NCBI RefSeq assembly: GCF_000422545.1
Contig: NZ_AULZ01000030.1
Coordinates: forward strand, 1 to 41,522
Direction: 5' to 3'
Length of the DNA stretch: 41,522 nt
From: Desulfocurvibacter africanus subsp. africanus DSM 2603
Lineage (GTDB): Bacteria; Desulfobacterota; Desulfovibrionia; Desulfovibrionales; Desulfovibrionaceae
Shown here: piece by piece, positions 190-41,522 of the stretch
Layout: every line of letters starts with the position of its first letter
How positions within the stretch are numbered: position 1 is the first letter of the stretch
Notes under the pieces: generated by a model
Seen by the model: the letters and a program-made list of their open reading frames with translations, nothing else
Databases searched by the model: none
Told to the model about the DNA's origin: nothing
Made by a program: the position numbers and the translations under genes

Positions 190-200
190 CGTCAGCTCCT

Positions 201-327
201 AGAGCAGATTGCTTTTAAGACGCCCGCTCCGGCGTTGACGGCGCAAGTGAATTGCGCCTACGCCGAAGCTAGCGGCAAGCCATGCCGACGCATGGCTTGC
301 AGAGCATTTTCAAAAGCAAAATGCTCT
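201..327 (+). repeat. Palindromic repeat family A, copy 1 (MITE-like, about 126 bp)
   Basis: First of five near-identical elements in the window (others at 8397, 12900, 33237, 41149). The ends are imperfect inverted repeats (AGAGCAGATTGCTTTT against AGAGCATTTTGCTTTT) and TA flanks both sides. It holds three hairpins: arms GGCGCAA/TTGCGCC at 240-258; arms GCAAGCCATGC/GCATGGCTTGC; and a terminal one with arms AGAGCATTTT/AAAATGCTCT. It lies between the GNAT-like gene and the end of the ABC transporter operon. Confidence 0.9.
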
Positions 328-388
328 AAGGGAAACATTGCTGGGATCTCGTGGTCTTTGTCTGTCGGCAGCCAAAAATATGTTCAAA

Positions 389-8251: not shown

Positions 8252-8396
8252 AAGGTTCCAAAACAAGGCGACGATAACGCCGGCGAGCAGGCCATTCCAA
8301 GAGCGGTTTCCTGAGGAAGTGCGCGAAATCTCTCCCAATGGGGAGGCGTCCGCCTTCAGTGGGCGGGGTTCAGGGAAGGCAGGGTTCTTCCCGGCT

Positions 8397-8522
8397 AGAG
8401 CATTTTGCTTTTGAAAATGCTCTGCAAGCCATGCGTCGGCATGGCTTGCCGCCGCGTAGGCGTAGGCGCAATTCACTTGCGCCGTCAACGCCGGAGCGGG
8501 CGTCTTAAAAGTAATCTGCTCT
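8397..8522 (-). repeat. Palindromic repeat family A, copy 2
   Basis: A 126-bp copy in the opposite orientation to copy 1, flanked by TA on both sides. It lies between the divergent cyclotransferase and GAPDH genes. All three hairpins are intact. Terminal inverted repeats are AGAGCATTTTGCTTTT at one end and AAAAGTAATCTGCTCT at the other. Whatever promoted the cyclotransferase gene must lie within the 145 bases between this repeat and the gene, or within the repeat itself. Confidence 0.9.
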
Positions 8523-8795
8523 ATGGAGCAGCACGTTCCAGCGGGCGACATCCCGGCGACTCTAAGCGCACTCCCGGTGCGAGGCAATGATTCCGCGGGG
8601 CCTAAGCCTGTCAGATACTCCCGTTCTGCCCTGGCTGCGGCATCCTGTTTGACATGGCTGGACTCTAGGGGCAGAAACCAAATCCTCGGCCCAACCGCAC
8701 AGCTCCCATCAACATTCCGGTTATCGAGCCGTGCCGCGCTTTGGCCAAGATTCACCAGGCCTGACAGGGCAAGGGTTTGCCAAGGATCTGCAAGG

Positions 8796-9812: not shown

Positions 9813-9857
9813 GTTCGCATATCTGGAAGATTGATTAGAGCAACTTGCATTTGACCT

Positions 9858-9914
9858 GAGAGAGGGCGCTGCCCTCTCTCAGACTCTCTCCCGCCAGGGA
9901 AATGATTTCCCTGG
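9858..9914 (+). repeat. Palindromic repeat family B, copy 1
   Basis: Two adjacent hairpins: arms GAGAGAGGGC/GCCCTCTCTC (9858-9880, 3-nt loop), and a 21-nt perfect dyad with arms CCAGGGAAAT/ATTTCCCTGG (9894-9914), joined by a short pyrimidine spacer. The same unit is at 33497-33553 (opposite orientation) and, diverged, at 15774-15838. It sits between the convergent GAPDH and MerR-type genes and may act as a two-way 3' end structure. Confidence 0.85.
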
Positions 9915-9948
9915 ACCCGCGATGTCATAGGAGTTTGGCAAACGGCTG

Positions 9949-12881: not shown

Positions 12882-12899
12882 TGAGTCCATAAATAATCT

Positions 12900-13025
12900 A
12901 GAGCAGATTGCTTTTAAGACGACCGCTCCGGCGTTGACGGCGCAAGTGAATTGCGCCTACGCCTACGCGGCGGCAAGCCATGCTGACGCATGGCTTGCAA
13001 AGCATTTTCAAAAGCAAAATGCTCT
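12900..13025 (+). repeat. Palindromic repeat family A, copy 3
   Basis: A 126-bp copy in the same orientation as copy 1, starting AGAGCAGATTGC and ending AAAATGCTCT. The second hairpin loop has CTGA instead of CCGA, and one outer pair of the third hairpin is lost. Its right end abuts the 110-bp IS-derived element with only one base between. Confidence 0.9.
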
Positions 13026-13026
13026 A

Positions 13027-13136
13027 GGGCCTGTTAACGCTATATAAGAACAAAAGTTATTATAGCGGCTTACGTTTGAAGCAATTTCTCTGGGCCCTTA
13101 TCTTCATTCATAAACTGCTTTAGTGTGAACAGGCCC
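13027..13136. mobile_element. 110-bp non-autonomous derivative (MITE) of the IS5-family element
   Basis: Terminal inverted repeats are GGGCCTGTTAACGCTA on the left and the complement of GGGCCTGTTCACACTA on the right (14 of 16 positions match). TA lies on each side. The first 17 bases, GGGCCTGTTAACGCTAT, are identical to the end of the IS at 41276. The interior is AT-rich and non-coding. It lies 11 bases after the pheT stop codon. It could have been mobilised by the transposase of the full-length IS. Confidence 0.85.
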
Positions 13137-13147
13137 TAAACTAGGCC

Positions 13148-20215: not shown

Positions 20216-20244
20216 AAAATATGGTAGGCACGAGGAGATTTGAA
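20216..20244 (-). promoter_or_regulatory. Possible thrS promoter overlapping the tRNA-Val 3' end
   Basis: On the minus strand TTCAAA (20244-20239, in the tRNA T-arm) and TATTTT (20221-20216) are separated by exactly 17 bases; each matches the sigma-70 consensus at four of six positions. The transcript would start near 20209, the first base of the hairpin. Because TTCAAA is part of the conserved tRNA T-loop, the match may be accidental. Confidence 0.35.
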
Positions 20245-20296
20245 CTCCTGACCCCTTGCGTGTCAAGCAAGTGCTCTCCCCCTGAGCTACGCGCCT
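20222..20296 (-). tRNA. tRNA-Val (anticodon GAC)
   Basis: A 75-nt gene that folds into a full cloverleaf. The acceptor stem is AGGCGCG/CGTGCCT with one G-T pair, followed by discriminator A and an encoded CCA. The D-arm holds GCTCAGGGGGAGAGC. The anticodon stem is CTTGC/GCAAG with loop TTGACAC, so the anticodon is GAC, reading GUC and GUU valine codons. The T-arm is AGGAG TTCAAAT CTCCT. The gene is 67 bases upstream of the thrS start and in the same direction. Confidence 0.96.
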
Positions 20297-33124: not shown

Positions 33125-33236
33125 CTCCCTGCCCACGCTCTATGTTGCCAGCATGTTTGCATAAGGCACGCCCAGAACCTGCGCGATGCGTTGGCAGGTT
33201 GCCATGCGTCGCGCGAAGCATGTCTGTCTGGTCTTA

Positions 33237-33361
33237 AAGCATTTTGCATTTCAGACGCTCCCTTCGGCGTTGACGGCGGAATTACATTCCGCCTACGCCT
33301 GCAGGGCGACAAGCCATGCCGACGCATGGCTTGCAGAGCATTTTCAAAAGCAAAATGCTCT
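33237..33361 (+). repeat. Palindromic repeat family A, copy 4 (most diverged)
   Basis: A 125-bp copy between the convergent chemoreceptor and GGDEF-EAL genes. Its left end reads AAGCATTTTGCATTTC rather than AGAGCAGATTGC. The first hairpin has arms GGCGGAA/TTCCGCC in place of GGCGCAA/TTGCGCC, so both sides of one base pair have changed together. The second and third hairpins are as in copy 1 except for one outer mismatch. Confidence 0.88.
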
Positions 33362-33496
33362 AGTCGTCAAGTTCTTGAAAAATCTATTTATTATAGTTGC
33401 TTGCCAATTGAATTGCAGGGTCCAGGGAGCAAAGCCCTTCCCAGCTCTTATCGGGATGGTCTATAGCAGTTTGCAAACGAAACAAAAAATGTAGGT

Positions 33497-33553
33497 CCAG
33501 GGAAATCATTTCCCTGGCGGGTGAGAGTCCGAGAGAGGGCAGCGCCCTCTCTC
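33497..33553 (-). repeat. Palindromic repeat family B, copy 3
   Basis: Same two-hairpin unit as at 9858, in opposite orientation: arms CCAGGGAAAT/ATTTCCCTGG at 33497-33517 and GAGAGAGGGC/GCCCTCTCTC at 33531-33553. It begins 20 bases beyond the stop of the GGDEF-EAL gene. Confidence 0.85.
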
Positions 33554-33572
33554 GGTTCATCTGCGAAATACT

Positions 33573-35783
33573 CTAGTAAGTCAGGACGAGGCCGGCCGGC
33601 TTGGCCAGCAGATCCATCACGTCGCTGGCCGGCATGGGCCGGAAGTAGAAATAACCCTGGGCGAAGTCGCAGCCCCACTCCCTGAGTTTGGCGGCCTGCT
33701 CCAGCGTCTCCACGCCTTCGGCCACCACTTCCAGGCCGAGGTTCTTCCCGAGCGCCAGCACGGACTGCACGATAGCCAAGTCGCCGGACTTTTCCAGCAT
33801 GCTGAGGATGAAGCTCCGATCGATCTTGATGGCGTCAAACGGATAGCGCACGAGGTAGCTGAGGGAGGAATAGCCGGTGCCGAAGTCGTCCAGGGCCAGG
33901 CTTACGCCCATGGCGCGCAGCTTGAGCAGCTTGCCCGTTACGTGCTCGTCGCCGTCCAGGATAAGGTTCTCGGTGATCTCCAGGCGCAGGCGCGAGGGCC
34001 GTACACCGGTCACGCGCAGGATTTCACTGAAATCGTCCACCGCATCGCGCTTGAGGAAGTATTTGGCCGACAGGTTGATATTGAGCAGAAGGTCGTGCGC
34101 CGCGGTATAGCGCTCGCTCCACAGGTCGAGGATCGAGCAGGCGTTTGCCAGCACCCAGCGGTCGATATCGAAGATGAGGCCGGCCTCCTCGGCTTGGGGA
34201 ATGAACTCGCCAGGACTCACCAAGCCACGCTCGGGGTGGCGCCAGCGTATGAGCGCCTCCATGCCCGTAATGCGATTGCCGCGCAGGGATATGATGGGCT
34301 GGAAATAGAGTTCGAACTCGCCGCGCTCCAGGGCCTTGCGCAGGTCCGTTTCCATGCGCAACACTTCCCTGGCCTGTTCGTGCATGCGGCTGTCGAATAT
34401 CTCGTAGACCGCGTTCCCGTTCTCCTTGGCGCGGTACATGGCGATGTCCGCGTCGCGCACGATCTCCTCGGGGCTGTCGTAGCGCTCGGTGTCGAGCACC
34501 ACGCCGATGCTTGCGCCGGCAAACAGCTCGTGGTCGTCCAGAAAGAAGGGGCGAGCCAGGGCCTTGCGGATACGCTCGATGATCTTGAGCGTCTCCAATG
34601 GGTCGCTCAAACCGTCCAGCAGGATAGCGAATTCATCGCCTCCGAAGCGGGCCAGGGTGTCGCTGTCGCGGACGCACTCCGTGAGCCTGGCGGCGATCTC
34701 GCACAGCATGGCATCGCCGGCCGGGTGCCCCAGGCTGTCGTTGACCAGCTTGAAGCGGTCCAGATCCAGGAAGAGCACGGAAAAAATGAAATCAGGGTTG
34801 CGCTTGCCGCGCCGGATGGCTGTTCCGAGACGGTCCAGGAACAGGGCTCTGTTGGCAAGCTCGGTGAGCGCGTCGTGGAAGGCCAGATGGCGGAGCATGT
34901 CATCAGCTCGCCTGTGCTCGGTGATGTCCTCGAGCATGGAGATGAAGTAGTCCGGCTCGTCGTTCTCCTTGCGCACAAGGGTCACAATCTGTCTGCCCCA
35001 AACCAACGCGCCATCCTTGCGCAGGTAGCGCTTGGTCAGTTCGAAGTAGTCCCGGCGTCCCGCCTGCAGTTCATGGAAAAACTGCTTTGTACGTTGAACA
35101 TCGTCGGGATAGATGTAGTCCGAGTAATGTAAAGCCCGAATCTCGTTCAGGCTGTAACCCAGAATGGCCACGCCGGCCTTGTTCATGTCCAGAATACGGC
35201 CATTCGGATCAATGAGAGCTATGCCGAAGCCGGCGTGCTCGAAAAGGGTGCTAAAACGCTGCTCGCTGCCCAGGAGCCGCCGTTTAACCCGCCTGCTTTC
35301 CGTCACATCCTGCACGATGCAGCACTGCAGGTCGCGGCCGTCATGGCTGAAGCGTGAAGAGTAGACCTCGACATCGCGCACCGAACCATCGGCCCGGCGG
35401 TGTCTGACGCTTGCATTGCCGCCGTTGGAGCCCAACGCCTCGGCCGGGAAATGTGCAGGGCAATCGGATGGATCGACGAGCAAGGCACGCAGGTCCATGG
35501 CAATCAGAGTCGAGCGGGAGTGTCCGTAGTAGAGCGCAGCGCTCTGGTTGCAGTCCATGATGCGCAGGGACTGAGCATCGACCAGGAGCATGACTGCGGC
35601 GTGTTCCGCAAAGGCTCTAGCCAGGAGGTCGCAGGGCAGGCTGCATTCCCCGTTGTTTCCACTGCGGCATGCAGTGGGATTTACCGCAGGGAAAGACTCT
35701 GGCGCGTGCCCAGGCTCGCGCTCCAGTGGACCCGCGCTTCCCTGCCCCTGGGCTAGGCCGTCTGAAGATTCGTCCTGCCTCAT
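33573..35783 (-). CDS. PAS-PAS-GGDEF-EAL protein (cyclic di-GMP synthesis/degradation)
   Basis: 736 residues, no signal peptide or membrane segment, so a cytoplasmic sensor. Two PAS domains lie at about 55-165 and 172-292, each followed by the usual short linker (DVTESRR, DITEHRR). The diguanylate cyclase domain has an intact GGDEF (381-385) and, five residues before it, the inhibitory RxxD site RDSD (372-375). The phosphodiesterase domain has EAL (509-511), LDDFGTGYSSL and KIDRSFI. Both activities could therefore be present, with product feedback on the cyclase. The PAS ligand is unknown; cysteines in the N-terminal 50 residues and around QCC (154-155) might matter. Confidence 0.95.
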   Translation of the reverse strand: MRQDESSDGLAQGQGSAGPLEREPGHAPESFPAVNPTACRSGNNGECSLPCDLLARAFAEHAAVMLLVDAQSLRIMDCNQSAALYYGHSRSTLIAMDLRALLVDPSDCPAHFPAEALGSNGGNASVRHRRADGSVRDVEVYSSRFSHDGRDLQCCIVQDVTESRRVKRRLLGSEQRFSTLFEHAGFGIALIDPNGRILDMNKAGVAILGYSLNEIRALHYSDYIYPDDVQRTKQFFHELQAGRRDYFELTKRYLRKDGALVWGRQIVTLVRKENDEPDYFISMLEDITEHRRADDMLRHLAFHDALTELANRALFLDRLGTAIRRGKRNPDFIFSVLFLDLDRFKLVNDSLGHPAGDAMLCEIAARLTECVRDSDTLARFGGDEFAILLDGLSDPLETLKIIERIRKALARPFFLDDHELFAGASIGVVLDTERYDSPEEIVRDADIAMYRAKENGNAVYEIFDSRMHEQAREVLRMETDLRKALERGEFELYFQPIISLRGNRITGMEALIRWRHPERGLVSPGEFIPQAEEAGLIFDIDRWVLANACSILDLWSERYTAAHDLLLNINLSAKYFLKRDAVDDFSEILRVTGVRPSRLRLEITENLILDGDEHVTGKLLKLRAMGVSLALDDFGTGYSSLSYLVRYPFDAIKIDRSFILSMLEKSGDLAIVQSVLALGKNLGLEVVAEGVETLEQAAKLREWGCDFAQGYFYFRPMPASDVMDLLAKPAGLVLTY

Positions 35784-41042: not shown

Positions 41043-41148
41043 AGGCGCCCTGCAGACCGGAGGCGCTTTTCATCCAATGGCTGGATTCATCCCAAACGGG
41101 TGATGCGATCTGCCATGGCTTTGCCCGGTTTGAAGTTCTTCTCCAATT

Positions 41149-41274
41149 AGAGCATTTTGCTTTTGAAAATGCTCTGTAAGCCATGCGTCGGCATGGCTTA
41201 CCGCCGCATAGGCGTAGGCGCAATTCACTTGCGCCGTCAACGCCGGAGCGGGCGTCTTAAAAGCAATCTGCTCT
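41149..41274 (-). repeat. Palindromic repeat family A, copy 5
   Basis: A 126-bp copy oriented like copy 2, flanked by TA. The second hairpin has arms GTAAGCCATGC/GCATGGCTTAC, where copies 1-3 have GCAAGCC/GGCTTGC: both bases of the pair at 41177/41200 have changed from C-G to T-A. Its right end abuts the IS5-family element with one base between. Confidence 0.9.
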
Positions 41275-41275
41275 A

Positions 41276-41522
41276 GGGCCTGTTAACGCTATCTGAGCGC
41301 CTCTACAATTAGTGCCAAGGTGAGAAAGCCAAGGTACATGACATCGAGCTTGTCGTAGCGGGTAAAAATGCGCCTGTAACCTTTGAGTCGTCTGAATAGA
41401 CGCTCTATCTCATTGCGCTTTTTGTACAGCTCCTTGTCATATTCCCAGGGTTCCAAGCGATTGGGGTTTGGAGGAACCACGGGAACAAAACCCAAATCTC
41501 GGCTCAGAGTTCTTGTTTCATT
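41276..41522 (-). mobile_element. IS5-family insertion sequence, right-hand (3') end, runs off window
   Basis: It begins with the terminal repeat GGGCCTGTTAACGCTAT, identical over 17 bases to the left end of the 110-bp element at 13027, and contains the 3' end of a transposase gene reading inwards from the right. The other end and the copy's length lie outside the window. Confidence 0.85.
41289..41522 (-). CDS. IS5-family transposase, C-terminal part (runs off window)
   Basis: 78 codons are open to the window edge. The translation includes DKELYKKRNEIERLFRRLKG, with the Glu of the DDE catalytic triad in NEIERLF, then YRRIFTRYDKLDVMYLGFL, the classic C-terminus of IS5-family (IS427-like) transposases. 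It stops 13 bases from the IS end. The catalytic Asp residues would lie outside the window, so activity cannot be judged. No frameshift or stop is seen in the part present. Confidence 0.88.
   Translation of the reverse strand, partial: NETRTLSRDLGFVPVVPPNPNRLEPWEYDKELYKKRNEIERLFRRLKGYRRIFTRYDKLDVMYLGFLTLALIVEALR

Follow-up and report, generated by a model that had tools for sequence, protein, structure and literature searches.

Does an IS5-family element that sits against the tip of a palindromic repeat, and a MITE that does the same elsewhere on the same contig, owe this position to chance, to joint movement with the repeat or to target choice? The question arises from two contacts in the window, the whole 41,522-nucleotide stretch analysed here, from Desulfocurvibacter africanus subsp. 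africanus DSM 2603 (the home genome). The original prediction had TGCTCTA of a family A repeat end followed directly by GGGCCTGTTAACGCTAT at both contacts, and a direct reading bears this out, TGCTCTA ending at 13026 and at 41275 and GGGCCTGTTAACGCTAT beginning at 13027 and 41276. A single TA is common to the repeat and the element at each contact (13026/13027 for the MITE, 41275/41276 for the IS), and this boundary TA is part of the target-site duplications of both. The two cases involve opposite ends of the repeat, as also foreseen, namely the right-type tip of copy 3 and the left-type tip of the reverse-lying copy 5. The end of the window MITE distal to family A is not at a repeat (TAAACTAGG). 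The parts of the window are as follows:

200..328, plus strand: family A repeat copy 1, tips without IS or MITE
8396..8523, minus strand: family A repeat copy 2, tips without IS or MITE
9836..9920, plus strand: family B repeat with the same TAGAGCANNTTGC tip as family A, far end approximate
12899..13026, plus strand: family A repeat copy 3, 128 bp, TAGAGCAGATTGC...CAAAATGCTCTA, right-type tip adjoining the MITE
13025..13026, no strand: TA in which the A tip and the left MITE end overlap, target-site duplication (direct reading)
13027..13136, plus strand: 110-bp MITE, GGGCCTGTTAACGCTAT...TTAGTGTGAACAGGCCC
13137..13138, no strand: TA beyond the distal MITE end, the other copy of the duplicated target site, both sides implying a CTAA target (direct reading)
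33235..33362, plus strand: family A repeat copy 4, diverged, 84% to copy 3
33462..33575, minus strand: second family B repeat, limits approximate
41148..41275, minus strand: family A repeat copy 5, left-type tip adjoining the IS
41276..41522, minus strand: IS5-family element, right end, carrying the C-terminal portion of the transposase; the contig ends inside the IS

The window also holds a tRNA-Val (gac) gene at 20222-20296 on the minus strand.

Family A is a 128-bp repeat (TAGAGCAGATTGCTTTTAAGAC...CAAAATGCTCTA) with terminal inverted repeats of about 20 bp, TA duplications and strong single-strand folding (z -7.0), and family B, another repeat, shares its tip, which as a sequence reads TAGAGCATTTTGC. 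Allowing up to 2 mismatches, the family A end motif had 674 matches in the genome against 0 for the reversed control, from which we estimate roughly 340 family A copies; matches to family A were found in 30 of 199 genomes searched. Around 38 of 50 distinct A copies not adjoining an IS or MITE the pattern YTA..TAR was present, with TA on both sides, and one orientation relative to the target was preferred (CTA..TAA in 19 against TTA..TAG in 3 among the 50 copies). Both the 110-bp element and family A have the properties of MITEs, being short, non-coding and present in many copies, with a target duplication and terminal inverted repeats (the inverted ends judged partly by eye). That family A duplicates TA speaks against its being a REP. 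One family A copy lies inside a decayed IS copy in contig C8 (locus L022, about 73257-74153), in the transposase gene, at TTC-TA-GAAC with the TA duplicated, which is strong evidence that A has moved, and another A element lies inside a further A element (locus L075, contig C40, 78177-78416). A decayed IS5-like gene between TAGAGCA-like ends (locus L198, contig C7) was tried as the parent of family A and dropped because the ends of its relatives read TCCATAAATAA or TCCGTAATTAA (an end pair found in 3 of 30 loci); when the stretches were scanned for other parents of 0.7-1.9 kb with TAGAGC ends, no transposon was recognised by eye.

The contig-edge ends GTTAACTCTAC and GTTAACGCTAT were initially read as belonging to two ISs, a reading that was dropped; they are assigned to one IS, as its left and right end, because their translations correspond to the N- and C-terminal parts of a putative IS5-type transposase. 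The N-terminal part is carried by the contig-edge ends with GGGCCTGTTAACTCTAC and the C-terminal part by the element at 41276. The C-terminal piece matched DDE_Tnp_1 above cut-off (30.5 vs 23) and DDE_Tnp_1_2 below its own cut-off, the N-terminal piece matched DUF4096 (79.8 vs 34.3), and the sole NCBIfam match of both pieces was NF033580 (83.3 and 96.8 bits, the cut-off of 110 applying to the whole protein). By these profile matches the product is a predicted DDE transposase of the IS4/IS5 type. At contig edges lie six left and five right IS ends, in addition to the decayed copy in C8, so that the genome holds at least six IS copies. The five right ends are identical over the 201-331 bases compared, apart from a single base in one copy, and across 143-355 bases the six left ends show no difference at all, although identity at contig edges may partly reflect assembly collapse. 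The MITE, of which the genome has 8 full copies plus a fragment at a contig edge, shares with the IS only its left 17 bp, which match the IS right end, where the transposase C-terminus lies; the opposite MITE end, GGGCCTGTTCACACTAA, differs from the IS left end, GGGCCTGTTAACTCTAC. The IS5-family element and the MITEs have inverted ends (GGGCCTGTTAAC) and duplicate TA at YTAR: TA was seen on both flanks of MITEs, and each home IS end, read singly at its contig edge, has its TA.

The other copies of these elements in the home genome were counted and their positions compared with random sites. Six of 8 MITE events lie at an A/B-type tip, or 7 of 8 by the looser TARAGCR motif. MITEs adjoin family A at C26:13027, C7:10110, C1:401527 and C34:9864 (A on both sides) and in the C25 fragment, whereas C5:181537 adjoins a B tip. 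A further MITE, C34:13098, adjoins A, and its other flank copies the C5 locus; it and C5:181537 were counted as a single event, since the terminal part of contig C34 matches C5 exactly until the contig stops. The last 310 or so bases of C34 (locus L074) equal the C5 locus, the assembly joint or duplication lying in the MITE. The copy at C1:188200 adjoins TAAAGCAACATGC, a degenerate tip that counts by TARAGCR only, and the most diverged copy, C5:147228 (85%), adjoins no tip. As to the IS, 3 of at least 6 copies are at an A tip (3/7 with the decayed C8 copy, which was left out of the IS count), these being 3/5 right ends and 0/6 left ends.

Against this stand the sites on offer. Background was taken from 400 kb of the home genome and from 200 kb each of two other genomes of the family, G202 and G086, with intergenic limits in all three set by our own simple hexamer gene finder. 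The home sample contained 1008 YTAR sites, of which 44 were tips; among intergenic YTAR sites the tips numbered 40/558 by the A/B-tip criterion, 34/391 (8.7%) once TTAA was excluded, and 46/545 (8.4%) by TARAGCR. The 9 of 14 IS and MITE events found at A/B tips thus compare with an 8.7% null (binomial probability about 4e-7), and the probability was still 0.002 with the null raised to 25%, a level meant to allow for a common bias towards harmless places; taken by itself, the IS gives a weak result (3/6, p 0.01). The preference proposed from two contacts therefore recurs among the other copies, as an excess at A/B tips in the home genome and as a strong one in G202, described below.

These counts bear on a simpler account, in which no repeat is recognised and the elements need only YTAR, best CTAG, in places that tolerate insertion, many of which happen to be supplied by tips. 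All of these elements do use YTAR with TA. Yet tips make up only 5-9% of intergenic YTAR sites in the home genome and G202, whereas they received 3/6 IS events, 6-7/8 home MITE events and 23/41 G202 MITEs (among the matches listed). Plain choice of YTAR is also rejected locally around the tips: of the YTAR sites within 200 bp of a tip, 44/119 are tips themselves, and the contact was exactly at the tip in all 9 events (9/9, probability 1e-4). At the non-tip ends no A/B tip lay nearer than 654 bp on the outer side (flanks of 620-1500 bases were covered), and the events therefore do not merely fall near repeats. We consider this account improbable, for these reasons and for those given by G202 below, where the target at tips is mostly not CTAG.

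Two adjoining elements may also travel together. Ten A copies touch an IS or MITE, six by a right-type and four by a left-type tip; both MITE ends meet both A ends, the IS right end likewise meets both A ends, and the outer flanks differ. Since both ends of the MITE occur with both ends of A, A plus MITE is not one moving unit, and the contacts are independent insertions rather than one duplicated unit, as the original prediction had it. A composite of repeat and MITE or IS, duplicated or mobile as a whole, would find some footing in the end of contig C34, which repeats the C5 locus, and in genome G255, where the tip was always at the same MITE end and the repeats were similar (4/4 tips). It is already contradicted for the home genome by the exchange of ends just described and for G202 by the use of both MITE ends and several kinds of repeat, and we give it almost no weight.

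G202 is a closed genome from the same family and another genus, with a MITE of 134-146 bp that has the ends GGGCCTGTTAACGC and GGGTCTGTTAACAC. Out of 105 matches counted, 41 MITEs readable on both sides were obtained among the matches listed, pairs outside 130-150 bp being left out. Among these, 23/41 were at TARAGCR tips, compared with 19/362 (5%) of intergenic YTAR sites (binomial 3e-19). The target at the 23 tips was TTAG in 15 cases and CTAG in 8, so that most tip insertions here used a site other than the CTAG which a plain site choice would favour. Eleven MITEs met the tip with one end, 11 with the other and 1 with both (the orientation being arbitrary for 2), and the adjoining repeats fell into several unlike kinds that ranged from short hairpins to long repeats. 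Placement at tips is thus independent of the MITE end and of the repeat family. Several of the 18 other events resemble decayed tips by eye and stand outside the count, and one of the counted tips (TAGAGCGCCTGC) is unlike a repeat.

G202 also speaks to the order of events. In 18 of the 23 tip-adjoining MITEs the sequence had 0-1 differences from the consensus (about 145 bases), the rest having 2, 5, 13, 71 and 72. Near-identical, young MITEs beside unlike repeats mean that in this genome the MITE moved to standing repeats. The opposite order, with family A and similar repeats moving into the TA at IS or MITE ends, is conceivable because the repeats and the IS/MITEs both use YTAR and regenerate YTAR at their ends, and because an A copy did insert into the IS in contig C8; the A copies adjoining an element tend, if at all, to differ a little less from the consensus (0-7 differences, mean 2.8, n=10) than the others (mean 3.9, median 2, n=50). 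Weighing against it are the near-uniform G202 MITEs with their many unlike neighbours and, in the home genome, the near-identical IS right ends, at which the three touched A copies differ from the consensus by 2-4/128. We regard the reverse order as very unlikely.

The original prediction had left a choice between the TGCTCTA boundary and the terminal hairpin as the feature recognised by the transposase. The boundary sequence fits: touched tips in G202 read TAGAGCR, followed mostly by T at positions 9-11 and by G, A and A at positions 18-20 in 20/23 each. The hairpin fared less well, as 10/23 of these tips fold at -6.0 kcal/mol or weaker over their first 34 bases (RNA parameters, no shuffle control), and left-type A tips, judged by eye, are without a local hairpin of their own; a strong hairpin thus does not look required, and the common denominator is the tip TAGAGCR.

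Our preferred reading, to which we assign a probability of roughly 0.7, is that in the home genome and G202 integration into YTAR favours the TAGAGCR tips of abundant palindromic repeats. The IS5-family element and the related 110-145 bp MITEs (ends GGGCCTGTTNAC) would transpose into YTAR and duplicate the TA, with an integration machinery that strongly favours YTAR sites having a TAGAGCR repeat terminus on one side; the element would land exactly on the TA of the repeat tip, so that the ends of element and repeat face each other across a single TA. Ends placed head to head across a TA much resemble a transposon circle junction. The tip GAGCATTTT agrees with the element end GGGCCTGTT in 6/9 letters (chance about 0.01 for one comparison), and a possible route would be that the tip, through this resemblance, is bound as a partner end would be at the junction of a circle or dimer. 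Direct reading of the tip by the transposase is an inference, and the notion of the tip as a substitute for an element end is a guess. A bolder version, which we find rather doubtful, would have the transposase take the terminal repeat (about 22 bp) common to the entire class of TAGAGCR-ended repeats as a stand-in end and insert head to head across the TA, the repeats serving as a docking platform for ISs and MITEs across the bacterial family; the same rule could explain the preference of IS711 for Bru-RS.

The generality of the tip preference is limited. An end-pattern search matched 48 of 288 family genomes, the home genome included, from which G202, G249 and G255 were chosen among genomes with many copies and G086 for the presence of family A, and not by random draw. 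For G249 and G255, 30 loci per genome were considered, ends whose partner was unreadable (20 and 23) were set aside, and the background came from the loci themselves (4/58 and 16/113 YTAR, not restricted to intergenic sites). In G255, 4/7 paired events were at tips (p about 0.01), and since it was always the same MITE end that met the tip, a composite may be at work in that genome. G249 had 1/9 paired events at a strict tip, a rate without preference that suits plain YTAR choice; three further flanks look by eye like decayed tips. Among all distinct ends, strict tips numbered 1/36 in G249 and 3/33 in G255. In G086, 5/10 stretches were at tips, with p 0.08 against 31/125 intergenic YTAR, and tips are 20/44 CTAG sites in 200 kb, so that plain CTAG choice suffices for 5/10 there. 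Several unlike palindromic repeats in G086 all begin TAGAGCR (loci L267-L276), and together they account for those 20/44 CTAG sites; a transposase that spreads them did not come to light. Tips were found in 0/2 stretches of G145 and at 2/27 ends when each genome across the family contributed a single locus.

For related ISs in named hosts, the majority of them beta- and gammaproteobacteria, the best 80 of 506 matches were followed, 6/80 being without a readable TA flank. Among these best 80, G stood at position 3 in 59/74 readable right flanks, as an account without repeat recognition would have it, and 1/74 flanks begins TAGAGC or TAAAGC and looks like another IS end. Taken with the family counts, these flanks suggest that YTAR, best CTAG, is the common rule, with a bias towards TAGAGCR tips superimposed on it in some genomes. 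Two related IS copies in Ottowia thiooxydans (L107, L110) are followed by nearly the same sequence, with an AGAGCAT..TGCTCT inverted repeat, and are possibly another repeat-tip case. At L112 and L344 an IS or MITE adjoins the apparent end of another such element across one TA.

Among the systems to which these contacts can be compared, the Bru-RS repeats of Brucella may have ends that look like the tips described here. If repeat tips are preferred, a safe-landing route is suggested, as elements docking on intergenic repeats would seldom break genes. We came across no open-access paper that deals with this IS, with these MITEs or with TAGAGC repeats in the studied hosts. The kind of target choice is already known from IS711 and from the REP-targeting ISs. 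IS711 (IS6501) duplicates TA at YTAR and, in the portions of the literature consulted, is reported to prefer the palindromic repeats Bru-RS1 and Bru-RS2 of about 103-106 bp (PMC2266754, PMC3163539, PMC10800456), a new copy having been found in a Bru-RS1 element (PMC2266754, PMC3163539). The part of one report that we consulted calls the determinants of IS711 integration specificity undetermined and its YTAR site choice unexplained (PMC2266754), and the TAGAGCR tip is a concrete candidate for such a determinant. The TA duplication at YTAR and the excess at palindromic repeats are alike in the home genome and G202, while this type of target choice was not encountered in G249 and did not go beyond CTAG choice in G086; different here are the host group, the contact exactly at the tip, the several repeat kinds with TAGAGCR and the use of tips by MITEs too. 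According to the sections consulted of a further report, IS1397, ISKpn1, IS621, ISPpu9/10, ISRm22 and ISPsy8 insert into abundant intergenic palindromes, the REPs (PMC1525189); those ISs mostly belong to the IS3, IS110 or IS4 families, and REPs are another class of repeat, family A having terminal inverted repeats of about 20 bp and TA duplications. The same sections place ISNm1106 of Neisseria, like ours an IS5-family element next to palindromic repeats, beside type-2 REP repeats in 4/7 and 7/14 copies (PMC1525189), although the Neisseria repeats are other ones and are likened by description. To these systems the present analysis adds a tip motif common to unlike repeats, MITEs as its users, and counts given together with their counter-examples.
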